The notes below the pieces were generated by a model that saw only the letters and a program-made list of their open reading frames with translations, searched no databases and was not told the origin of the DNA. The position numbers and the translations under genes are program-made. This document shows positions 3,131 through 64,000 of a stretch of 64,000 nt of DNA, one piece after another. Each line of letters begins with the position of its first letter. Within the stretch, counting starts at the first letter, position 1. The stretch comes from Citrus sinensis. Lineage: Eukaryota; Streptophyta; Magnoliopsida; Sapindales; Rutaceae. The stretch covers positions 27,381,501-27,445,500 of the forward strand of contig NC_068557.1 of the NCBI RefSeq assembly GCF_022201045.2, in the 5' to 3' direction.

Positions 3131-6100
3131 CTTCTAACTCATGTGCTTGCGTACCATTCCTCATGAGCTGATTCTTCCTCAACCTGTGATGTGGCTTCCT
3201 TCATGGGCTGTTCATAATTGGACTCGTTGTTGGGCTGCCCTTCTTGTAAGTAATCCGGTTGATCCGACTGAATATGGAAGGTTGTATCAGATTCACTTAA
3301 GAGTTTAGAATCCCTTTCCATTTTGAGAGTAGGGGTTAATTGTTTTAGACTAGTGGGTTTTACTTTCATATAAATTTTCCATCAAATTATGCAAATTCCA
3401 CTTGGAATAGGAGGATGACACGACGTATAAATATATAAATAAATAAATAAATATATATATATATATATATATTAGCCGAATTTTGGCGATAGCCCTAGCT
3501 AGCCAACAAGAAATATATCCACGTTGCATCATCCATCAAATTAAAAGTTAAAAATATCCACAAACAAAAATTCTTTTTTCATACCCCAGCTAATTTCACA
3601 GGTGAAGAAAGAATTAAATAAATAAAAGGAACAACTGGATACACCGAATATATAATAAAACATCTAATCTTTCTTTGTCAATAGTGTCCGAGAAACGTCA
3701 AATATGAACTTGGCCATCAATAATAATACGTACCTTATGCAAAAGCTTGGACTGTGATAGTCAGATAGAAAATCCTTGTAGGCCTTCATAAGATGCGGTG
3801 GTTGCTACTATTGCTTCCCCCACCACCCCCCCAATATATATTATCATAATCTTCTGCTCTAATCACTCTCAATGGGGATAAAAATAAATTGACCCTAACT
3901 TTGGATTGTTGTTGTGAGTATATATTAATTTATTAAAAATTTTTATAGCAGCTTAAGAACCCAACAATTGGACAATAATAACAAATTTAGTGTAAGCACA
4001 TGGACCGTGAATGTAGTAAAGAATTGACAACCAAACGAGTGTTTGGCAGAATAAAATTGAGAAATCTTAAGATAGAAATTGTTAATTAACGTCTCAACCA
4101 TAGCTGTCCGATAAATTATTAAAGCTTAATAATCAATCACAATTCTAGCTGAATTGGAAAAAAATAATTTTTTAAAAAAAATATTTTTTGAGGTGCGAAA
4201 GAGTCCGTGGCACAGTGCGTGTACGGCTGTACCGACACCCAATGTATCGGCAAATATGTTGTAATTTTAACCTCCAATGAATATCTCGACTTGGACTAAA
4301 TAACAGGATAAGATAAAATCAACCACAATCCAAAACAAATTTGTCATAAATGAGTGAATCTCCTTTTGATATTTGCATCGTACATCCAAGAGAAAAGAAA
4401 AGAGATGCGGAAGACGACGTGGGAAACCTAATAATAAATGTGACCAAAGTCTCGAAGTTTTCAATCACAGTTGTCCTTCCGATCCAGTGGTTCCGTACCA
4501 ATCAAAGTTTTTGCCAACCTGTTAACTATGCCTTTTCGATTCGTACCCCAGGCCCATATTTAGTTGGTTTTATTATCCTGGCCATTTCGTTCGTCGTTGC
4601 CATTAATTTCTCAACGTACTGAAGAAAAAAACGCAAAATGTACAAGCAAAATAAAAAGCAAAGCTGTGTGATTCATGAGTGAGAATTGGTTCAACATAAA
4701 TGGCTTTGCTTACACGTTACTCGATCGATTTGATTTAAGATAGGGTTTGTTGTTTGCAGATTCTATATAATCAAATCGATCAAATATTATAATTTTATGA
4801 TACTAGTTGGAACGTTTTTTTTTTTTTTTTTTTAGTATTTCATTCATTATAATTACATACCAATATTATAATAAAAAATTTATTGAAACCCATCTTGGTG
4901 AGCACAATAGCGATGATACCGTAAGTAGACTTGCACTAATTATTTTTATTAATTGTCTAGTTAATGTGTTTGTATCCTAACTATTTCATGAAGAACTTAT
5001 GTTCAGACTTATAGAACAATTTTATACATGGAGAAATTCTACTAAAAATAAACAACCATTTAATATCATGACAAGTGCGATATTATTTTAATCTCAAATC
5101 AATGCACATAAATCAATATGCGATTTAATTGTGCCGTAGTAACTTTAATATATAAAATATTATTCTAAAATTAAGTTAGTACAAACTATAATGTCGCTGC
5201 CTATAAATAATTTCTCTATATTTCCTTGTATATTCTTTACATACCCCAAATTTTTCAGTATTTTCATCATACATCTCTTGTTACATATCCTTTTTTTTTT
5301 TATTGGATTTCTCAATTCATTCATAGTATTTACTTTAAGATAACTTAATAAGTAAGTTGATAAATTTTCAGCAGAGAATTTGAGAAATTTAACATCGTAA
5401 TGGCCATTTAATCCATGTGTGTGGAATCTACGTACAGTGGTTAAATTACATCAAACATTCTGGCGGCACTCTTCTTTTGACTTTTTAACTGAAAAATGAA
5501 CTCAAATTTAAATCAAACAAGAGCTCAATCTCTACTTTTTGACCATAACCCAAAAAGAAATGGCAAAATATATATATATATTAATTGAAATTGATGGAAA
5601 CGGAATTTGCTTGGCTGAGTTGACCACATTTTCATTAAAAGATCACCATTCATTGACTGGTCCAGATAGTTACCGCACGGGCTTCCCGCCAAATGAGCCC
5701 CACCTTGGTGATGGTCCTCACGATCCATTTCCTCGCCGATGTTTTGAACCCGTGCAGCTTCCTGCCATCTTCCCTCGCAGATCACCGACGTTTTTCTTTT
5801 ATTATTGTATGTGCATGCTTCAGAAAACGACATCATTTTATTAACAAAATAAAAAATATTACTCAGAGCGAATCAGCACCCGATATTTGTCAGCTGAGCG
5901 TGCCGGGCCTCGTGGGGACACCGCCAAATATAAGCGTTGGGTGGTGGTGATCATAAAATTACAAAATTAAATTAAAAAAATGAAACAAACAAAATAAAAA
6001 ATATTGTCGCCCACGCATTGTTGTCGGACCACTCCCACTAACTAATTACCTCATGTTAATTAATTTATTAAAACGTTTTAATTACTCAATTTGTCCGACA

Positions 6101-6599
6101 ATTGGATGGTCCTTCTTTTAATCATGTCTCGACTACTTTAATCATTCCGTTAGTTATGTACGATTACATAATTTTACTAATTAAATGATAATCTTTTTTA
6201 TTTTTATTTTTATTGTTTTATCTGTCTGAAGGTCTGGAATGGTAGATAGAGGGGAATAATCTCAAAATATAGTTATATTTTAATTTTTGCATGGTATGAT
6301 AAAAAAATGCTATACGGCGCGAATAAGTTAAGATGCACACGTGTGGGAAAGAGACAGGAACAGGATGTCAAGTAGGAGGACTGCAGAAAAAATGAATTTA
6401 TTTTATTTTATTTTTATTTTGGGTCGAAGTTAATAGAGAAGTGGGCGAACCAAGTCTTGAGGGCCACCAAACGGACAATGTCATTGTGTAGTACATTATT
6501 TGTGGCCGACACTGCTACAGAAAGATCTGTGTTTATCAGCCGTCAGATCAGCACGTTTTGAGATTGAGCAAAGGCATTTCTTGTGATTCATTTATTTTA
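3131..6599. other. Intergenic, AT-rich, no recognisable gene
   Basis: This stretch holds poly-A/T runs, a TA-type microsatellite (about 3450-3472) and short open frames. A 76-codon minus-strand frame at 3139-3369 is acidic and Gln/Glu-rich and abuts the putative LTR; I recognise no family. Sequence at about 5640-5940 is less AT-rich and open on both strands (for example 5525-5836 minus), but shows no domain. Low-complexity peptides elsewhere are not credible genes. Confidence 0.6.
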
Positions 6600-7255
6600 G
6601 GGAAAATATACACCGTTCATCCGTTTTTTTTTATTTTTTTAAAAATATATAATTATTTTTTTTTGGTACTGAAATCCACCTAAAGTTATATTTTATTTTA
6701 CTTTTTTACTTCCGTTTGTAATCTGTTAAGAAAACTAATAGAAACTTTAAAAAATGATTATTTTACCCCCAAAATAAAAATTATAATTTCACCCTAAAAT
6801 GCCAAAAATAATCAAATTCAATGATGAATATCATTATTGATACGTTAATGAAGTACAAAAAAATCTTAACTATTAGAGATTATAATTCAATGAATAATAA
6901 AATTCTACTTATCTTAAATTCAATTGATGGCTTGTGAGATTGAGCTATTTTTAATACTACTGTTATAATTTAGCATTCTAATTACAAAAATATTTAAAAA
7001 AATAAACTCTACATTTGATGGTTGTGGAATTCATTTCTTTATTGACCGATTTGGCAATTTTAGGGTGAAATTATAATTTTCGTTTTGGGGGTAAAATGGT
7101 CATTTTTTATGTTTCCGTTAGTTTTCTTAACGGATTCCAAACGGAAGTGGAAAAGTGAAATAAAATGTAACTTTAGGTAGTTTCCAGCAAAAAAAAAAAG
7201 AATTGTGTATTTTTTTAAAAATTGAAAAAAACAGGTGGACGATGGATATTTTTCC
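6600..7255. mobile_element. Mutator-type MITE with long terminal inverted repeats
   Basis: The left end starts GGGAAAATATACACCGTTC. The right end, reverse-complemented, starts GGAAAAATATCCATCGTCC. The two arms stay alignable for about 200 nt: the left arm ...TTACCCCCAAAATAAAAATT... at 6760-6785 is mirrored by ...AATTTTCGTTTTGGGGG... at 7075-7095. A perfect 9-bp direct repeat, TTTATTTTA, flanks the element at 6591-6599 and 7256-7264. Long TIRs with a 9-bp target duplication are the signature of non-autonomous Mutator-like elements. There is no coding capacity in the loop of about 250 nt. The flanking repeat is low-complexity, so chance similarity is possible, but the mirrored arms are clear. 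Confidence 0.82.
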
Positions 7256-33281: not shown

Positions 33282-36200
33282 ATGGGGAGCAGTTGTCGTA
33301 GTTGCAGGTGGCTGCGTTTATTCGTGGTGGTTCTTTTGTTGGGGTTTTTGGTATGCACTAGTTTTTGTCGGGCTCAGGATGATTCAGAACCAGATGATGA
33401 AATTACAGCTGTGTACATTGTTACTCTTAAACAAGCTCCTTCAGTTCATCGCTTTGCTCAGGAGCTCAGAAGAGGAAATAAAAATCACGGCTTTCACAAA
33501 CAGAATGGAACTTCTGGTAGATTAAGTAGGCTCAACAATCCCAGGTACTGAATTTTCACTATTACTATCATTTTTCTTGTATTTAAATGGCTTAATAACT
33601 GAACCAATGCTCTTAATGCTGTGTATTATTTGTAATTACTGTGCTGTTTACTTCTTTTCAGTTTATTACATAAGTGGTTCAACAGTTGGTGATTTGATGA
33701 ACAGAATTTGTCGTATGCATAAGTTTTCTTGAGTTCTTTCTCTTTTTTTTTTTTCAATTGTTTTTGTTGGATAAAAGAATTAGTGTTTGTTTATGATTGT
33801 AGACCAAGTGTGTGATGGGGTCCTCTCGTGTCCCTTTTTGTGGCTTCTTGTCTAATATCTATCACGAAACCATGAAACGTGCATATATGTATCATATCAG
33901 TTTTTCTTTTTAGTATTTCCTCTAAAAAGAAAATCTATATGATGAGTGGTCTTTGTATTGTGGAATTATATTTGGATTCGGAGTGGGAAACAGTGAGTTT
34001 TCATTATTTAAGATACTCTTGTTTAATTATTTGAGCATAATTCACCTGAAAATAGTAATTATAATAGACAATGGTTAATCTCCAACTTGTCTTTTTTGTT
34101 TTTTGGTAAACACTAAATAAAGAGAGTTCATTTGACCAATTATTCTTTTTGTGTATTCTTCCTATTCCTACATTTAGGAACGTTTCAATATCCCATCCAC
34201 GGTCTGGTTATAATATTTCCAGAGTTCATGATTCAATATTGAGGAGGGCTTTTAAGGGGGAGAAGTATCTAAAGCTTTATAGCTACCACTACTTGATTAA
34301 TGGGTTTTCTGTGTTTGTTACACCACAACAGGTATATTATCAGTTGATATTTATTTTTAGCATTCATTATTATGTTGTTATGATGATGATTATGCTGGTA
34401 AAAGTATTGGCATGCTCTCATTGCTAGATTCCTTTCCCTTTTTACTTCTCTTCCTGAATTCTGTATTGTTCAGTTATAGTTGCACAATAGTAGCGTAAGT
34501 CCCCTGAAACTGTTACTTTTTTGTGACTGCAACTTTTTTTCATATTTGGGTAGAAATGTACTTACAAAGTTCATAAACTTGTCCTATTCATCAATTTCTA
34601 AGGCAGAGAAGCTTTCAAGAAGGAGAGAAGTGGCAAATGTGGTTTCGGATTTTTCTGTTAGAACTGCAACCACACATACACCACAGTTCTTGGGTTTGCC
34701 ACAGGGGGCGTGGATCCAAGAAGGTGGATATGAAACTGCTGGAGAAGGAGTAGTAATTGGTTTTATTGATACCGGTATTGATCCAACTCATCCCAGCTTT
34801 GCTGATGATGCATCTGAGCACTCCTATCCAGTCCCCAGTCACTTTTCTGGCATTTGTGAGGTTACCCGGGATTTTCCATCTGGATCATGCAACAGGAAGC
34901 TTATTGGTGCTCGCCATTTTGCGGCATCTGCTATAACTAGAGGAATTTTCAATTCAAGCCAGGACTATGCTTCACCATTTGACGGTGATGGCCATGGCTC
35001 GTGAGTTTGTTTCTGCATTCCTTTATAGTTAGTAGTTATAGTTTTACAGTAGTGGCTTTCAAAGAGTTATAGAAGCTTCTATTTTTTCTTTTAGTTAAAT
35101 GTGTTCAAGACATTATCAGATTTCTGTAGATTATAACCACTTTAAGCCTGCATTAGAACTTGGACAGTGAGAAAATAGTCGGGATGTACTCAACATAGAG
35201 ATTTCTGGATGAAACTGAATTCAGAAATCGAGTTCATTCCCTTATGATCCATTAAAGAAAACAATGCAAAAATAAATAATAAATAAATAAGAATTTTGAT
35301 ACTCGGTTTTGTAATTTCCATGATTAGTTTGTTGAAACACTTAAGAAATTTTTTTTGATGTCTACAATTCTTTCTGTTGCTGGTATATGTCATATTTACA
35401 AATTATAATATTCAATTTCATTCAGTTATCCAGTTCTTCAGAGTGCAACTAAATTGATCTAATTTATAAATACAGGCACACAGCATCTGTTGCTGCCGGA
35501 AATCATGGCATTCCAGTGGTAGTAACCGGGCATCATTTTGGAAATGCGAGTGGGATGGCCCCTCGATCACAGTAATTTTCTATACCAGATTTTCTTTTTT
35601 TTTCCCTATTAAAATTGTCTGATGTGTTTGACAAAATACTACAGCTGGAGTTAAATGCATAAAGCAAATCTGAGAATTATCATCATGCACTGCACACCAT
35701 TTCATTGTCTAGACCAAGATCGAATCATTTCATGTGTAAATCTTTTATATTTGTTATTTAAGTTTTGTTGGTTAACATGTTATTAAGCACCCATCTTTTG
35801 CAGTATTGCTGTTTACAAGGCATTGTACAAAAGCTTTGGGGGCTTTGCTGCAGATGTGGTCGCTGCCATAGACCAGGTATGTATGACTGGTTCAATTTAT
35901 TTTTTCTATCAATCTCTTGTATTAGAACTGATTTTTGTTCAAGGAGGTTCTGCGATGTAAATTGTTCATGTTTCTCTCGAACAGATATCAATCTTTCATT
36001 ATCAAAAAGTCATATACAGAAACAGAAGATTACTCTTAACAGGACCCTATGCGAACGAATATTTGCTTCTTAATAGGGAAGAGAAAGAACCTGTTGGTAG
36101 AGATATTATCCACTCTGATACAACCATTCTATATGAGAACCATTATTGATATCCTTAGTCCATGGAAGTGTAACAGATATGAGTGCACTTTTTGTTGCTG

Positions 36201-39200
36201 GTATCGTTTGCCAGTGCTGATGCAGATTCCCGAGCAATATCTAGTCTGTTGAGATGATTCAGCTTGTTTTGGAATCAGATATTTAGTGTTGCTTTTGGGG
36301 CTGTCACATTTAGTTTAGTAGTATCCTTTCATTAGCTGTTTGTGCTCTTTTGTACTGCTACAGCACAGTTTCTGTTTCCTGTCAAATAAAGAAAATTATA
36401 ATCTTGGACCATTTTGTGTTTGCAGGCAGCTCAGGATGGAGTTGACATTATAAGCTTATCAATTACTCCTAACAGGCGTCCTCCTGGTATTGCAACTTTC
36501 TTTAATCCAATTGACATGGCCCTGCTATCAGCTGCAAAGGCTGGCATTTTTGTTGTGCAAGCAGCAGGAAACACTGGACCTTCACCTAAGAGCATGTCTT
36601 CCTTCAGCCCATGGATATTCACTGTTGGTGCTGCCTCTCATGATAGAATTTACACAAACTCTATAATCTTAGGCAACAGTTTAACAATTTCTGGCGTTGG
36701 ACTTGCACGTAAGTTTTACTTTCAGAGTATGCCTAATCCTTCTGTTTCCTTCATACAAGAATGCTTCATAAATTTAAGTTCTTGCTTTGTTGTATAAGCT
36801 TGAGAGTTTAGCCAATGGGTATCTGAACAGCTTCTAAATAATTGGAAAATTTTAAATAAATCAAGGTCCATGGAGTGAGCTATCAATGCCTTGCAATGTT
36901 AAATTGTAGAACAGCAGATGAAGCTACTGAATTTGGTTTACCATGAGAAAGCAAAAAGGGGAAGAAAGGAAATAGAATTTGAGATACTTAGGCAATTTAT
37001 TTGCATGTTCTGCTGAGCAGTAAGAAATCTTAATTTCAAACGGTGGGTAAAAGGTTGATAATTGCTTTTTATTTTCCTTAAGTAAAGGAAAGTACGTGGA
37101 AAAAACTTCAAGATGCATGACAATGGCATGAAAGTAATTGGTTTTTATATGCACTAAACACTGGCATTTTCTTCTTGTGCCCCCCCAGCTTTCTTGTCTG
37201 ATATCCATATCAGTGCCAGCCTCATCGCACTTCATTTCAGTGACTGTTTTGTTAATTTAATCAATTCCTGCCCCCCCCCCCCCCTCTCTCTTCTTTACGT
37301 TATCAAGCTCTCTGTCTCTTTACTCACTGATATAACCTAGTTTTAGATATGTCAATATAAAATACTTTTATGTTTTCAAGATCCATGACAATGACACTTT
37401 TTTTTTGGCACGACACACTCTTGTGCCCTCCATCCCCTCCCTCCTTTTTTGATCGTTATGTATTTGCAGTCACCATGTAGTTTATGGTGGTTGTATCAGG
37501 GTGCCAATGCTTGCTTCATATGAATGAGCCCTTCAGTGGATGGAGTAGTTGTGTACAATATTGATCTGATATAATATTATACCTTGCTTTAATTCCTTTG
37601 ATCATGTCAACATAGTCTGAACTTTACATCACAAATTATGTACAAAACTGTGAATGCATGCAATTTTGTTTTGGTACAACATTATAATTATTACCTCTTA
37701 TCACCGAAGATAACTAATATACCTTCTTTTTTTTTTTATTTGGGTTCAGCGGGGACTGATAAAATGTACACGTTGATTTCTGCACTTCATGCTTTGAATA
37801 ATAACACAACAACTACCGATGATATGTATGTGGGTGAATGCCAAGATTCCAGTAACTTCAATCAGGATTTGGTCCAAGGAAATCTTTTGATTTGTAGCTA
37901 CTCAATTCGGTTTGTTCTTGGGCTCTCTACTATCAAACAGGCCTTTGAAACAGCAAAGAACCTCAGTGCAGCTGGTATTGTGTTCTACATGGATCCTTTT
38001 GTTATTGGTTTTCAGCTCAATCCAACTCCTATGAAGATGCCAGGCATCATAATTCCATCCCCCGATGATTCCAAGGTTCAGTTTCTGTGTCTGTTGTGCA
38101 GACAACATTAATTGTTTTACTTTATGATTTTATTTTTTAATTAATTTATTTATTTACTTTTTAACCTATCACAAATGGTAGGGCGCCCTCAACCCTTGTT
38201 TTCTGAAAGAAAACATAGCATTTGGCGTTAGTGGGTACTAGCCATTTTGTTTACAGACCTAAGGTCCTCCAGTTCATGCCACTTATTGGGCATTTTATGT
38301 AGTTCGTTTAAAAAATTTCAGTCAACATGGCTCAAATTAGACTACGTTTTGGGAGTGAATTTTCTCTTTCGTACTACTTTCGTACATCCTCACTCTCTCT
38401 CTCTGTCACAATCATACATACCCACTCTCTGTGTCATAATCGTTAAACTTTCATGGTCTGTTCTGCAGATTTTACTGCAATACTACAATTCTTCTTTGGA
38501 GAGAGATGAAGTTACAAAGAAGATAATTAAATTTGGCGCAGTTGCATGCATTTTGGGTGGGTTAAAAGCAAACTTCAGTAACTCTGCTCCAAAGATTATG
38601 TATTACTCTGCTAGGGGACCAGATCCAGAGGACAGTTTCCTTGATGATGCTGACATAATGAAGCCCAACTTGGTGGCTCCTGGAAATTCCATTTGGGCTG
38701 CTTGGAGTTCTCTTGGTACAGACTCAGTTGAATTCCAAGGTATTCATGCCTGTCAATAATTATTTTATATAGGTTCAAAACTTGACAGTACGTAGTAGTA
38801 AAATGCGTCTTATATAATTTTCTGTAAACTTAAAACTTCCAGGTGAGAGCTTCGCGATGATGTCTGGGACTAGCATGGCTGCTCCTCATATTGCCGGACT
38901 TGCTGCACTAATTAAGCAAAAGTTTCCCAGTTTTAGTCCTTCAGCTATTGCATCTGCACTTTCCACATCTGCTACTTTATATGACAAGAATGGTGGGCCA
39001 ATAATGGCTCAGCGTGCTTATGCCAAACCAGATGAAAACCAGTCACCTGCAACGCCATTTGACATGGGCAGTGGTTTTGTAAATGCAACTGCTTCACTAG
39101 ATCCGGGTCTAATTTTTGATGCCAGTAAGTCATAAGCCTATCCTCACTAGTTGGGGTTGATGGTACAAACTCCCTTTTTGTTATTAACCATTTACCAGCC

Positions 39201-39823
39201 TGTAATTTTTTCTTCCCCCAAATGTTTTTGTTCCTTGTTGCAAAAAAATGTCATTTGCTGGCCATATTAGTTGTTTTTAATTGTCTCGAATCATCACAAT
39301 TTTGTGTTGTCAGTCTCTAGTGCTCATAAATAGGATCTAAATCCTTCTGTTGATTTTCTATGCTAATGTTAGTTGCTTGATGATTGTTATAGGTTACAAT
39401 GATTATATGTCATTTCTCTGCGGCATCAATGGTTCAAGTCCGGTGGTGTTGAACTACACCGGTCAAAACTGTTGGGCATATAACAGTACCATCAGTGGTG
39501 CTGACTTGAACTTGCCCTCGATTACGATTGCACGGCTGAATCAATCTAGGACAGTCCAAAGGACATTGACCAACATTGCCGGCAATGAAACTTACAGTGT
39601 TGGTTGGAGCGCTCCTTATGGGGTTTCCATGAAGGTTTCTCCGACTCATTTCTCAATTGCCAGTGGCGAGAAGCAGGTCTTGAATGTCTTCTTCAATGCA
39701 ACCACGAGTGGCACAGCTGCCAGCTTTGGAAGGATTGGATTGTTTGGAAATCAAGGGCACATTGTGAACATTCCATTGTCAGTCGTAGCCAGACTGTCGT
39801 ACAATGCCACTACTAATAGCTGA
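33282..39823 (+). CDS. SBT2.2: Subtilisin-like serine protease, SBT2 subfamily (SBT2.2-like)
   Basis: Ten exons: 33282-33544, 34178-34331, 34603-35000, 35476-35571, 35804-35876, 36426-36708, 37750-38075, 38469-38739, 38843-39124, 39393-39823. They sum to 2577 nt, 858 aa. A signal peptide (LRLFVVVLLLGFLVCTSFCRA) directs secretion. An I9-type propeptide follows (AVYIVTLKQAP... YHYLINGFSVFVTPQQAEKL). The catalytic residues are all present: Asp in FIDTGIDPTHPSF, His in DGDGHGSHTAS (split by intron 3), oxyanion Asn in QAAGNTGPSP and Ser in MSGTSMAAPH. A PA-type insertion lies between Asn and Ser, and a Fn-III-like C-terminal domain (SRTVQRTLTNIAGNETYSV) follows with many N-X-S/T sites. Length and the long propeptide region fit SBT2 rather than SBT1. 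The ATG at 33282 was chosen because it directly precedes the signal peptide; an in-frame ATG at 33105 would add 59 unlikely residues. The SBT2.2 assignment rests partly on gene order. Intron 6 contains a poly-C run near 37271. Confidence 0.92.
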
Positions 39824-40293: not shown

Positions 40294-40302
40294 TCATATA
40301 CG
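40294..40302. repeat. Left target-site duplication of the NLR-carrying MULE
   Basis: TCATATACG, identical to the 9 bp at 46529-46537. It lies directly before the inverted end. Confidence 0.85.
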
Positions 40303-41346
40303 GGCTCCAGCTACCATGCCCCTCGGGGCATGGTACCCGTTTTTTTTGTCAATATCCCGTGTAGCCGTTAGATTATAAATAATTTAATCCAACGGATGGG
40401 TTTGAAAGGGCTAAAAGTGAATAACAGTGGGCTACCGTCGAAACCAGTTTCTTCCAGTTTGTTTGTTCGAAATTAGTTTTAGGGTCTATAAACCCTTACT
40501 GGCCATTTCGGGCGATGACTGCAGTTTGTCGAACGCAAGGAAATTGAAGTGCGCAAGGTGTAACTGCGGTTGGGGTAGCGCTTCCGTGTGCGATTATTGA
40601 ATTGGCTTGCAGTGCTTGCAACTTGTGGCGGCAGTATTGAACGAGGCAGAAGGGATTGGGTTAACACAATTAAAGGTCAGTATAATTTGAATTTCAGATT
40701 AGAGATAGGAATCATGTGTGGGTGATAAAAGTGGATGGTGGAAATTTAACGTGTCGTTTGGACAATTGGAAAATTTGGGAGTAGAGGGCAAAAAATGTAA
40801 ATTTAGATTAAGGATATTTCCTGCACATCGCGATTGGTGATTACGTTGAGAAATTGAACCCAGTTGAATTAATGAAGTGTTGTGCATATAAATGGTTCCA
40901 AAATATATTTTGTACAACGAGTTAAAAATTGAGGGGTTTCGGGCAATAAATATAAAAAATAATTGGGGATTATTTAGCAGCAGTTTAATGTGGCGTATTT
41001 AAAGTAATAGGATGAAGAAGAAGGTTGGTGTTATGTTGTGTAACTTGATTGTGTTGCCGGCAATTGCTGTGCCTTTCTTGAACTTAGTCATGACTATGCA
41101 TTCGAATAGAATTTCATAGAAGCACCAGACATGTGACATGTTAATTATCAATTTCTACTGAATTATTAAGATTTAGATAATAAAAGTTTTCATTTGTAGC
41201 ATAGTAAAGGGATTAATTAATTGATTAGTATTGTATGGTTGTAAGTATAAGCAATGAGAACCCAATGTATGACATTGAATTCCACAGTAGCGTGGGTGTT
41301 AATAAGTTAACATTGAACATGCGTGGACAATTAGTAACAGGAAAAG

Positions 41347-43833
41347 TTGAAATCTACAGCAATAGACGTCGCCAGGGCATGTGGAGGTTTGCCCATTGCC
41401 TTGACTACAGTGGCAAAGGCACTGAGAAGCAAGAGTCTGCATGAATGGAAGAATTCCTTGCGAGAACTACGAACGCCTTCAATGGTAAACTTCGAAGGAG
41501 TATCTGCAGAGACTTATTCAAGTATTGAGCTGAGTTTCAAGTATTTAAAAGGTGGGCAACTCAAGGAACTTTTTCAGCTCTGCAGTCTAATGGGTAACAG
41601 TATCCCTACTTTGAAATTGCTTAAATACTCCATGGGTTTGGGTATATTTAAAGGAGTCAATAAGATGGAAGATGCACGAAACAAGTTATATGCGTTGGTA
41701 CATGAACTTAGAGACTCTTGTTTGTTGCTTGAGGGTGATAGCAATAAACTAGTTTCAATGCATGATGTTGTTCGTAATGTCGCCATATCAATTGCATGCC
41801 GAGACCAACATGTGTTTTCGGTGAGATATGATGAGGATGTGTGGGACTGGCCAGATGAGGATACACTTCGAAAATGCAATGCTATCTCTTTAATAAAAAA
41901 TAGTAATTGTGAATTTCCTGAAGGATTAGAATGCCCAAACCTTGAATTTTTATATATCTCTCTCAAAGATTCTTCTCGTGAAATTAATATTCCTGGGAAC
42001 TTTTTTGTAGGGATGAAAAAGCTCAGAGTTCTAGATTTCACTCTAATGCAGTTTTCTTCTTTTCCATCTTCAATTGATCTTCTAGTAAATCTTCACACAC
42101 TATGTCTGGATCAAAGTGCGTTGGGGGACATAGCAATCATTGGGAAGTTGAAGAGTCTAGAAGTCCTTAGCTTTGTGAGGTCTGATATTAAGAAGTTGCC
42201 CGAAGAGCTAAGTCAACTGTCTAAGCTAAGGCTGTTAGATTTAACCAATTGTTTCCATCTAAAAGTTATTGCCCCAAATGTCATATCAAGCTTAACTCGA
42301 TTAGAAGAATTGTATATGGGTAATTGCTGCATTGAATGGGAGGTTGAAAGAGACAACAGGGAAAGAAGTAATGCTAGCCTTGACGAATTGATGCATTTAC
42401 CTCGGCTAACCACTCTAGAAATTGACGTTAAAAGTTACAATATTTTACCAGCAGGTTTTTTGGCCAGAAAGCTGGAAATGTTCAAAATATCTATTGGAAA
42501 TGGGTTATTCATGCATCCCATGAATGTTGAACAACATTGGTTTAAAAGTCGGCCTTGCTTTTCGATCAACAGTGATCGCAAGAGTTCAAGATCATTGAAG
42601 CTCAAGCTTGATTTTATGGACATTTGCTCCACGAAATTGCAGGGCATCAATAACGTTGAATGCTTATGGTTGGACAAGCTGCAAGGCATCGAGAATGTTC
42701 TTTTCAATTTGGACACGGAGGGCTTTTCACAATTGAAGCTTCTCTGGGTTCAAAATAATCCTGACTTCTTTTGCATCGTCGATTCAAGGGCAATGGTCGC
42801 TTGTGATGCCTTTCCTCTTTGGAGTCACTTATCCTTCTCAATTTGATCAACATGGAGAGGATATGTATTGATCGGCTCAAAGTAGAGTCTTTCAACAAAC
42901 TCAAAACCGTAGAAGCATATAATTGTGATAAGTTAAGCAATATCTTTTGGCTCTCCACTACAAAATGCCTTCCAAGACTTGAGAGAATTGCAGTTGTTAA
43001 TTGCAGCAAGATGAAAGAGATTTTTGCAATTGGGGGAGAAGTTGATAATGCAATTGAGAAGATAGAGTTTGCTCAATTAAGATCTTTGAGTCTGGGGAAT
43101 CTTCCAGAGGTCACAAGTTTTTGCCGTGAAGTAAAGACTCCTTCAGCATCACCAAACAGACCAGCGTCGCAAGAGGAATTGACGACTACGTATAGCTCCA
43201 GCGAAATCACTTTGGATACTTCAACTCTGCTTTTCAACGAGAAGGTGCGTAGGCTAACATTTTCTTTATATATATATATATAACATTTTATTCTATCCTG
43301 AGTTCTCTTTTGATATCATACGTGGAAAATGATTAAATCGTTTAAAGAATTGAAAGAAAATGAAAAAAAAGGGGGGAAAATAATCTCACCCACTCACTAA
43401 TTAAGCTCTTAACAAGTAATATGAATTAGATTGCATACTTATCTGTCAGTTAGAAATTGGTTTTGACTTGCATTAATTTGTAATCGAAGAAGAAAATTTC
43501 AACAAGTGCTTCTCATATGCATATGGGATGTAACAAGAAATTCTTTTTTTTTTTTAGGTAGTGTTGCCTAACTTGGAGGCTTTGGAGATATCTGCAATTA
43601 ATGTCGACAAGATTTGGCATTGCAATCAAATTCCGGCGGCTGTGTTTCCTCACTTTCAGAGTTTAACACGATTGATTGTGTGGTGTTGTCACAAATTAAA
43701 ATACATATTTTCAGCGTCTATGATCGGAAGCCTTAAGCAGCTCCAACACCTAGATATACGCTTCTGTGAGGATTTACAGGAGATCATTTCTGAGAAAAGA
43801 GCAGATCAAGTGATCCCTTATAATGGGTACAAA
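41347..43833 (+). pseudogene. Truncated CC-NB-LRR (RPS2-type) resistance gene fragment
   Basis: The fragment starts abruptly inside the NB-ARC domain: ...DVARACGGLPIALTTVAKAL (GLPL motif). It continues through ARC2 to the MHD motif in KLVSMHDVVRNVAISIACRD (near 41750-41800) and then into leucine-rich repeats (KLRVLDFTLMQFSSFPSSI, LRLLDLTNCFHLKVIA, RLEELYMGNC...). The coiled coil, P-loop, kinase-2 and RNBS motifs are missing. A one-base deletion in the LRR near 42820 shifts the frame from 41347-42846 to the frame ending at 43244. A GT-AG intron (43245-43557) joins NEK to VVLPNLEALEIS. LRR homology ends near 43833 (...ISEKRADQVIPY), where transposase-like sequence begins in another frame. NLRs of this class are intracellular immune receptors; this copy cannot make one. 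It is captured inside the MULE. Confidence 0.9.
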
Positions 43834-44640
43834 TTGGAACCAATGGGCATTGCATTGCATGCCTAACTGGGTTAAAAGTAACCACGTCACACTTATGGTC
43901 ACTGAACGCCTTCACCGATTCATGAAAAGATACTTGCACCTGAGCATTACTCACAAGTTTACTGGATTGACAAATGCAACTGCTTATCTATTTGAGCATC
44001 GAAGACTTCAAGGGTGGGAGTGGATTTACCAGCGAATTACCCCAACTGTCACAAACATAATTCAACATCATCTTATTGAAGCCCGCTACCTGGCCGTGCA
44101 AAATAATAACGGCACTATTTCAGGTGTTACGGATGCTGCTGCTACTTTGTACGAGGTGGACATGCAAAGAAAGCTTTGCAGTTGTGGCTTCTGGCAGAAG
44201 TCAGGTGTTCCATGCGCACACGCATGCAAGTGTATTCTACAAAAGGCTGAAAAGATCGATGACTTTGTTGACAAAATGCGGACAATCTCTCAATATAGGG
44301 ATACTTATGGACCGGGAATGAATTCACTGCCAAATGATTTTCCATGGAAGTCCCATGTTTCCACTGTTTTGCTCCTTCCTCCTCGTGCACATGCCACAAT
44401 TGTACAGGACCCGCCTTACCCTATTCCTCATACAAAACAGGTAAAATTTCCAAGTTTCTTCTAATATATATTCTCCACACTATGCATTTATTTCAAATAT
44501 TTTTCTCAAAACAACCCTTTTGGTTTACTATTTCACATTGTTTAACTGTTTCAGATCAGTCCTTATTCGGCCACAACAGAACTTACTGGACATGACTTCT
44601 TCCACCTACCATCAAGCAGCAGTGATGAAGATTCAATAAG
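43834..44640 (+). pseudogene. MULE transposase C-terminal remnant with SWIM zinc finger
   Basis: The plus-strand frame runs to 44464. It contains ERLHRFMKRYLHLSITHK, the SWIM motif CSCGFWQKSGVPCAHA (CXCX9CXH) near 44178-44225, and TISQYRDTYGPGMNSLPNDFPW, which corresponds to the conserved Y...Y/P...W block at the end of MULE transposases. A possible GT-AG intron starts after 44441 and ends at 44553, followed by a Ser/Asp-rich exon to about 44640. The catalytic DDE domain and the N-terminal DNA-binding domain are absent; the NLR fragment lies where they would be. FAR1/FHY3-type domesticated genes share the SWIM motif, but position within inverted ends and a 9-bp duplication favours a transposon remnant. 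Confidence 0.8.
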
Positions 44641-46528
44641 TAAGTCTTTCTTTTTCTTTTTCATAGTCTGATACTATGAAGTCCAATTTTTAGGGATATC
44701 AATCGACTTTACAAGTTCTTGAGCCAACTATTGCCACAATTTCATTTTAAACAGATATGACTTATATCATTGCAACCCAACTTTCAAGTGCGCACAATAT
44801 TATTTACCCTACATTCATTACTTGGATATTATAATATTCATCATATCCCACCTTCACATTGGCATTTGCACGCGCATTGCTAACTATATACTAAATATAA
44901 TCACTGCAACCGACGATATTTCCTTTACTTCTCTGCATCTTGTACTTATTTTTATGCAATTTTCAGTACATACCCTACATTTATTTCACACAATTTTCTC
45001 CATCACAAGCCTTGCACACAAGCTTCAGCAATTCTTATTTCATGTAAATTCTACTTCTACTGTTTGTCTCCGCTATTCGTATTAATACGTCCTATGCATG
45101 CATAAGGCAATAATTTTAGGGTTTCACGGTAACCAATTGTATTTGTTGGTGTGACAGGGTATTCGATTGGTTGTTAATCCTTACTTATCTTCTGGTTCGG
45201 TTACTTGTGCGAATCGTATTTTTAATTCGTTGTAACACCATGACGTACATAATTTGTCTTCTCATATACAATGATTTAATATTTCACCTTCACGACAAAT
45301 CTCTTAGGGATATGATAAATCGTTCCACCACATTACCTGCTCATTAATTGGTAACATGCACTTCCTCCACGATTGCGGGTCTATTAATATTTCATTCACC
45401 CTATGCATTTCAACATTCAACTCCACGTGAATTATTTACATATGCATGTACGAGCTCTTCCTTTGATATAAGTAAGTTAGTTGCATTGTCATTCATACTT
45501 GACTTCTCATTTAAAGGTTTCCTTTTCTCATGTTGCAGGCCTGTAGCGGTGACTCTAGAGGGACATGGCCTTTTGATACCTACGGTGTGCTGTGTCCTCC
45601 ACAATTGTCGCCATCAAACGAACTCCACCAGCCACGAAACTTATCCATATTTTGTATGCTCCTATATTTAGTTATTGCAAACTTTCATCCACTATAACTG
45701 TATTTTGCTATCAATTAATAGATGTTATTAGCATCCTACAACATTGTGCAAGTTTCACGATAATGTGTTTCCAACTTATGTACTTTACCTCTTATGTCGA
45801 CATTGCAGCTTATATTTTTTTCTCCTCCTGCTAGCACCTGCAATACAATTATTTTCTCCATATTTCAAATTTGTTCCTTCTATTTTCAATATCCCTGATC
45901 CATTTCTCCCTTTCCTTTGTGTTTGTGGCATTATTTTCTTTATTTCGATTATGCTCGCTTCCAGTTTTAATCTTGCTCAACTTTGCTGTTAACTTACTGG
46001 CTTCAACTTGACCATATTGCTTCCATTCTACCATAGGTTATTCTTTAATCAAATAATCTATTTTACTGATGTTGGTCGTTTCCTCCTCTGCGTCTTAACT
46101 GACTACTCCATTTTCTTCATAGTTATGTTTATTTTTAATTAACTCATTACTACTATAATTAACATCAGTTAATCTCATTATTTCTTCCTTGCTGTAGTCT
46201 TACTTTCACATGGCTTCGGTCACAATTGACATTATTAAAAAAGGGGTAATTTTTTAATCGTCTTTTTATATATGCTTGCTACTACAAATACTTCTTCCCT
46301 CAAACGATTTTTTGTTATATACACCAACTTTTCTTCTTTCCTTTAACGCATTTATTGCAACATTAATAGTTCATTTCATCATTTATATTGACTGCCTCTC
46401 CCGGTTTCTTTAATCTGCTGCGTGCCAACTCCTTACACGTCCGATTTTTCTCTTTTTCATCCAACGGCTAGGTCACTACCTGACAAAGCAAGGGGGTTCC
46501 GTGCCCACGGGGCATCGTAGACAGAGCC
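44641..46528. other. Right-hand spacer and inverted end of the MULE
   Basis: Pyrimidine-rich, with many short T/C-rich frames (for example 45348-45671, 45592-45834). No domains are recognised. The last ~75 nt are the right inverted end. Confidence 0.55.
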
Positions 46529-46537
46529 TCATATACG
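46529..46537. repeat. Right target-site duplication of the NLR-carrying MULE
   Basis: TCATATACG, identical to 40294-40302. Confidence 0.85.

Positions 46538-58995: not shown

Positions 58996-64000
<5,005 letters not shown>

Follow-up and report, generated by a model that had tools for sequence, protein, structure and literature searches.

Pack-MULEs are Mutator-like elements (MULEs) that carry a host-gene fragment between their ends, and published definitions require that they be without transposase (PMC4858842, PMC6446971). One of these studies discards any MULE with a transposase match at E < 1e-9 (PMC4858842). Gap filling has been proposed for Pack-MULEs, and single-copy animal Pack-TIRs have been attributed mostly to gap filling with template switching (PMC8277862). 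Nucleotide-binding leucine-rich-repeat (NLR) sequence is also relocated by mobile elements of other classes, by long terminal repeat (LTR) retroduplication in pepper and other plants (PMC5664825) and by helitrons, which have moved nucleotide-binding-site genes in grape (PMC3256180). A cacao study counts Pack-MULEs among the elements able to duplicate genes, and found no link between the abundance of transposable elements and that of NLRs (PMC12405883). Among the published matches listed, judged by title and the start of the abstract, we found no case of a MULE or Pack-MULE capturing NLR sequence. Here we describe a MULE with an NLR fragment inside it, from a 64,000-nucleotide stretch of the Citrus sinensis genome (C2:27381501-27445500, hereafter the window; positions below are window coordinates). 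The genome searched comprised 299.7 Mb in 11 contigs. We consider it likely that the fragment was captured at the DNA level, by template switching during the repair of a broken MULE, and that this cargo is inert.

The element occupies 40303-46528 (6,226 bp) and is flanked by two copies of a 9-bp target-site duplication (TSD), TCATATACG, at 40294-40302 and 46529-46537, which agree at 9/9 positions. A TSD of the 8 to 11 bp typical of MULEs thus lies directly outside the ends, both here and at a sister element on C7 described below. The ends pair imperfectly as terminal inverted repeats (TIRs) over ~90 bp, with a gapped local alignment score of 31, whereas none of 500 shuffles exceeded 19.5. They are degenerate yet still inverted, and fall short of classical long TIRs in both length and mutual similarity. 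An ungapped inverted-repeat search did not return them among its 11 pairs, probably because their pairing needs gaps. The left 207 bp (40294-40500) match 12 places in the genome, most over partial length, and the right 199 bp match five; each count includes the element's own copy and is a lower bound. A preliminary description of this DNA had placed inverted ends and an exact 9-bp duplication around 6.2 kb and expected copies of the ends elsewhere, and it was right in both respects. We also searched the genome with each flank separately for a paralogous empty site. The left flank matched only itself, and the right flank matched itself and C2:7398914-7398994 (query bases 224-301 only, 79%), which is no empty site.

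Within the element, an NLR fragment lies on the same strand as, and directly upstream of, a MULE transposase tail, just as the preliminary description had it. Pfam profiles recognize the end of an NB-ARC domain on the plus strand (profile positions 179-233 of 248; 19.5 bits, below the cutoff of 23.5), together with LRR_14, LRR_4, LRR_8 and LRR_RPS2. Apart from its end, NB-ARC is therefore missing from the fragment, which includes some but not all of the leucine-rich repeats. It retains an intron at ~43249-43557, in the position that this intron has in the donor and within the block shared with it. The captured segment had earlier been given as 41347-43833, ~2.5 kb with an intron; its identity and its intron stand, and we correct its limits to 41345-43821. 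Its G+C content is 38.1%, while the MULE parts have 37.3-37.6% and the window as a whole 34.4%.

Alignment of the fragment to the genome, which the preliminary description had proposed as the way to the donor, leads to a cluster of RPS2-like NLR genes at C5:16.15-17.35 Mb. The search used 41340-43860, and the best 40 of 177 first-look candidates were scored. At least 49 places match: one is the window itself, 34 are in this cluster, eight are at C5:26.7-27.0 Mb and six at C6:0.97-1.01 Mb. There is at least one copy of the loaded element, and among the matches listed the window is the only one outside the C5 and C6 NLR clusters. We aligned 20 cluster loci (L015-L033 and L048); L015 and L016 are also represented by the longer cuts L046 and L047. 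Seventeen of them span the fragment in one block, intron included, from 41345-41351 to 43818-43821, whereas L029, L033 and L048 are interrupted or shorter. Large open reading frames (ORFs) in L046 and L047 carry NB-ARC and LRR_RPS2, and one in L048 carries NB-ARC. The best full-length match is L015, at 92.8% over 2480 columns. In a FastTree phylogeny with 16 cluster copies the fragment, whose terminal branch measures 0.056, groups with L015-L023 and L029. At 43295-43594 it is nearest to L048 (97-98%), though 100-bp steps there vary. Since the closest copy switches from one 100-bp step to the next, the donor was probably a cluster member that is not intact in this genome, or one that has recombined since the capture. 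Viewed through the captured piece, C5:16155686-17350158 is a large RPS2-like NLR cluster whose copies have mosaic relations to one another. None of the 12 left-end or five right-end matches is located in the donor cluster.

The MULE itself can be read from its relatives. The sister element (C7:15216521-15220742, minus strand; 4,221 bp) has its own perfect 9-bp TSD, CCCAAACTG, and matches the window element on both sides of the NLR fragment: at 40303-41347 with 89.0% identity (1,041 aligned bases, 6 gap columns) and at 44019-46528 with 88.8% (2,321 aligned bases, 256 gap columns). The NLR fragment was not found in it, either in the genome search with the piece or in the sister comparison. Between its two matching blocks the sister holds ~776 bp, which recur in whole or in part in four of the 11 other family loci (L037 and L038 at 89-90%, L040 and L042 at 66%); L041 and the window give short, weak matches only, of 21 and 28 nt. 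We take this stretch to be MULE sequence. Part of the 5' internal sequence of the window element is also 83% identical to C7:14422057-14422765.

The transposase tail downstream of the NLR fragment is recognized by Pfam as SWIM (24.7 bits, cutoff 19.6). By tblastn, residues 527-713 of an 814-amino-acid relative, L049, which has DBD_Tnp_Mut, MULE and SWIM domains, align with 43820-44380 at 43% identity (E 1e-49). The MuDR/MULE transposase is thus represented by its C-terminal part only. At E <= 1e-3, matches to the L049 transposase occur in the window and in L034 but in none of the 11 other family loci. For the window tail, the next relatives in the genome are at most 44% identical (one shorter piece, 49%). 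The sister also lacks most of the transposase, with a different gap: homology to L049 begins at residue 596 there and at residue 527 in the window. The NLR fragment occupies the position that MULE sequence has in the relatives, and transposase homology resumes at the 3' junction. Judged from those relatives, the sequence lost probably comprises ~0.8 kb upstream and approximately the first 526 transposase residues. The earlier proposal was that NLR sequence had replaced the transposase core; the loss probably extends beyond the core.

We asked whether other family members carry cargo by running Pfam on four ORFs from three of the 12 family loci (L035, L036 and L044); three of the four ORFs gave no match. 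In L035, an ORF at 5963-7099 on the minus strand has Ty3-type integrase matches, so this related MULE probably holds a nested retroelement.

Both edges of the fragment can be placed closely. At the 5' junction, the trinucleotide AGT is exactly common to the sister and the donor and is followed by similar sequence, in all an 18-nt stretch; L037 has GGT at this point. In a test made after the junction had been inspected, 20,000 pairs of 18-nt segments were drawn at random from the sister and the L015 locus, and only one of them scored as high as the junction pair. At the 3' junction, donor similarity ends at 43821 and transposase similarity begins at 43820 in the protein comparison with L049. 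By eye we saw no direct repeats or poly(A) in the junction sequences at 41345 or 43821; no dedicated search was run.

These features suggest the following sequence of events. A MULE whose ends were degenerate and whose transposase contained SWIM would have been broken internally. Repair synthesis may then have jumped to a new template, an NLR gene in the C5 cluster, aided by the short homology at the 5' edge, and copied ~2.48 kb of genomic DNA, intron included. The copied DNA would have been rejoined inside the transposase gene, with loss of the intervening MULE stretch. The earlier reading of a captured NLR fragment is supported, in that the fragment, with its intron, was copied at the DNA level from another part of the genome. 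The sequences show the TSD, the MULE family, the NLR-free sister, the donor cluster, the boundaries of the fragment and the microhomology at its 5' edge; the breakage, the change of template and how much MULE was lost are what we infer.

Compared with L015-L018, counting only where those four agree and without outgroup polarization, the fragment lacks one nucleotide at 42817, has two insertions (3 nt and 2 nt) and differs by 69 substitutions. Thirty of these fall in 41345-42800, with 10, 11 and 9 at the three codon positions, and this even spread argues against coding constraint. A further 27 lie in the 309-bp intron and 12 elsewhere. A functional NLR would have a complete NB-ARC domain and an open frame; here there is the end of NB-ARC only, and the deletion shifts the frame. 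Where the two parts join, the NLR reading frame is out of register with that of the transposase, and it runs into a stop codon at 43864-43866. There is therefore no simple fusion protein, and we ruled out a direct NLR-transposase fusion on these two grounds. The cargo is probably inert, because its frameshift is absent from the four compared donors, its substitutions are spread evenly over codon positions and its join is out of frame.

Several observations weigh against this account of capture by repair followed by decay. No single donor fits throughout: a best-match mosaic of cluster copies reaches 2,386/2,477 positions (96.3%), with 100-bp steps ranging from 86 to 100%. The exact 5' microhomology amounts to no more than 3 bp with the sister and 2 bp with L037, and its test was devised once the junction had been seen, with one sister and one donor. 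On the 3' side, the only guide to the MULE sequence immediately before 43822 is a protein with 43% identity. Private substitutions are denser in the intron (27/309) than in the counted exon (30/~1,456), unlike a purely neutral expectation. Three of 16 cluster copies (L021, L023 and L030) have earlier in-frame stops, so that broken frames are not peculiar to the capture. Finally, animal gap filling has a cis bias, whereas the donor here is on another chromosome, and template switching followed by transposition is suggested to weigh more in plants (PMC8277862).

This last point leads to the strongest alternative, which overlaps with repair-mediated capture and differs from it in timing. Capture may have happened elsewhere, after which the loaded element transposed to this site, as in the FoSTeST model; we regard this as possible, and the repair account itself would fit either order of capture and insertion. 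In favour of the model, both ends of the loaded element are present and its TSD is perfect. Note that the TSD dates the insertion of a MULE and not the capture. FoSTeST is proposed for multicopy Pack-TIRs and suggested to be more important in plants, where interchromosomal Pack-MULEs are commoner (PMC8277862), and the donor here is interchromosomal. Against this, no second loaded copy appears among the matches listed, though cut-and-paste transposition need leave none. The preliminary description's suggestion that such a copy can spread NLR sequence is not supported: the one copy among the matches listed that lies outside the NLR clusters resides in an element without a complete transposase.

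An active regulatory role of the loaded element, with transcripts or small RNAs of the NLR piece acting in trans on the C5 genes, seems unlikely to us; the preliminary description had suggested such small RNAs. Exact matches in 22 donor-cluster loci cover 1,499 of the 2,454 24-mers and 1,612 of the 2,457 21-mers of the piece, and Pack-MULEs are described as transcribed in part and as a possible source of small RNAs (PMC8277862). However, such k-mer sharing is expected from any recent copy, there is one copy, and it bears no sign of coding constraint. The stronger form of this idea, in which the MULE and its NLR piece are a dispersed decoy or a source of small RNAs that silence or methylate the large NLR cluster in trans, seems to us more doubtful still. 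About as unlikely as the regulatory role is that a MULE already in place received the NLR piece by some other route, such as another mobile element or a translocation, and was a bystander. The TSD shows the insertion of a MULE and not of its loaded form, which leaves room for such an entry. The junctions show by eye none of the repeats or poly(A) that could mark it (the ends of other elements were not searched for there), and MULE sequence was apparently lost at the site of capture, the outcome expected of gap repair. Assembly of NLR clusters is difficult; we nevertheless reject an assembly artefact or chance inverted ends as highly improbable, since the ends recur in the genome and pair better than shuffles, the sister shares the outer architecture, and no cluster copy is more than 93% identical to the piece over its full length.

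How the element should be classed follows from these comparisons. It shares with Pack-MULEs its MULE ends, a MULE-length TSD and a genomic host-gene fragment (NLR, 41345-43821) from another chromosome. It differs in that ~190 transposase residues remain, a tail well within the published exclusion limit at E 1e-49. Because the definitions exclude transposase and a tail remains here, the element, on its sequence, is a gene-capturing MULE remnant and not a strict Pack-MULE. Like animal Pack-TIRs (PMC8277862), it is single-copy, with filler inside a TIR element, breakpoint microhomology and apparent internal loss; unlike them, it is a plant MULE with its donor on another chromosome. CitMule, possibly from the same plant genus and compared by description and not by sequence, likewise has short degenerate ends, a 9-bp TSD and a SWIM motif in its transposase, whereas its copies measure 6.8-6.9 kb and have a five-exon transposase transcript, and the accessible part of its description mentions no cargo (PMC4334395). 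LTR retroduplication and helitrons resemble the present case in that a mobile element relocates NLR sequence, both involving element classes other than MULEs. LTR retroduplicates typically lose introns, whereas the piece here keeps one in its original place. This is not conclusive alone, as the pepper study also reports some NLR retroduplicates with introns (PMC5664825).

Table 1. Features of the NLR-carrying MULE, in window coordinates.
Feature	Position	Strand	Basis or remark
Left target-site duplication TCATATACG	40294..40302	.	Identical to 46529-46537
Left degenerate terminal inverted repeat	40303..40394	+	Aligns with reverse complement of right end; 11 other genome places partly match 40294-40500
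MULE 5' internal sequence	40303..41344	+	Collinear with C7 sister element
Captured NLR fragment (NB-ARC end, LRRs, one intron)	41345..43821	+	One-block match to C5 cluster copies; Pfam
5' capture junction	41345..41362	+	AGT common to sister and donor, inside 18-nt similar stretch
NLR intron kept in captured piece (boundaries approximate)	43249..43557	+	Inside donor-shared block, between two LRR ORFs
MULE transposase C-terminal part with SWIM zinc finger	43822..44461	+	tblastn with L049; Pfam SWIM
MULE 3' region	44462..46528	+	44019-46528 aligns to sister
Right degenerate terminal inverted repeat	46438..46528	-	Gapped alignment to left end
Right target-site duplication TCATATACG	46529..46537	.	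Identical to 40294-40302

Elsewhere in the window, ORFs at 34480-39820 with matches to Peptidase_S8 (below cutoff) and fn3_6 probably belong to a subtilase gene that ends ~480 bp to the left of the element. On the minus strand, JmjC and C5HC2 zinc-finger matches at 60211-61934 (KDM5_C-hel below cutoff) probably mark a histone demethylase gene, and an ORF at 925-2205 encodes a Ty3-type retrotransposon protease.

MULEs are already known to capture genes, and the element in the window, a well-documented case of a known kind, establishes neither a new process nor an effect on immunity. Because one case brings the donor cluster into view together with a sister free of NLR sequence and at least one of the junctions, its capture event can be dissected. 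The element places NLR sequence, with its intron, outside the NLR clusters and inside a DNA transposon.

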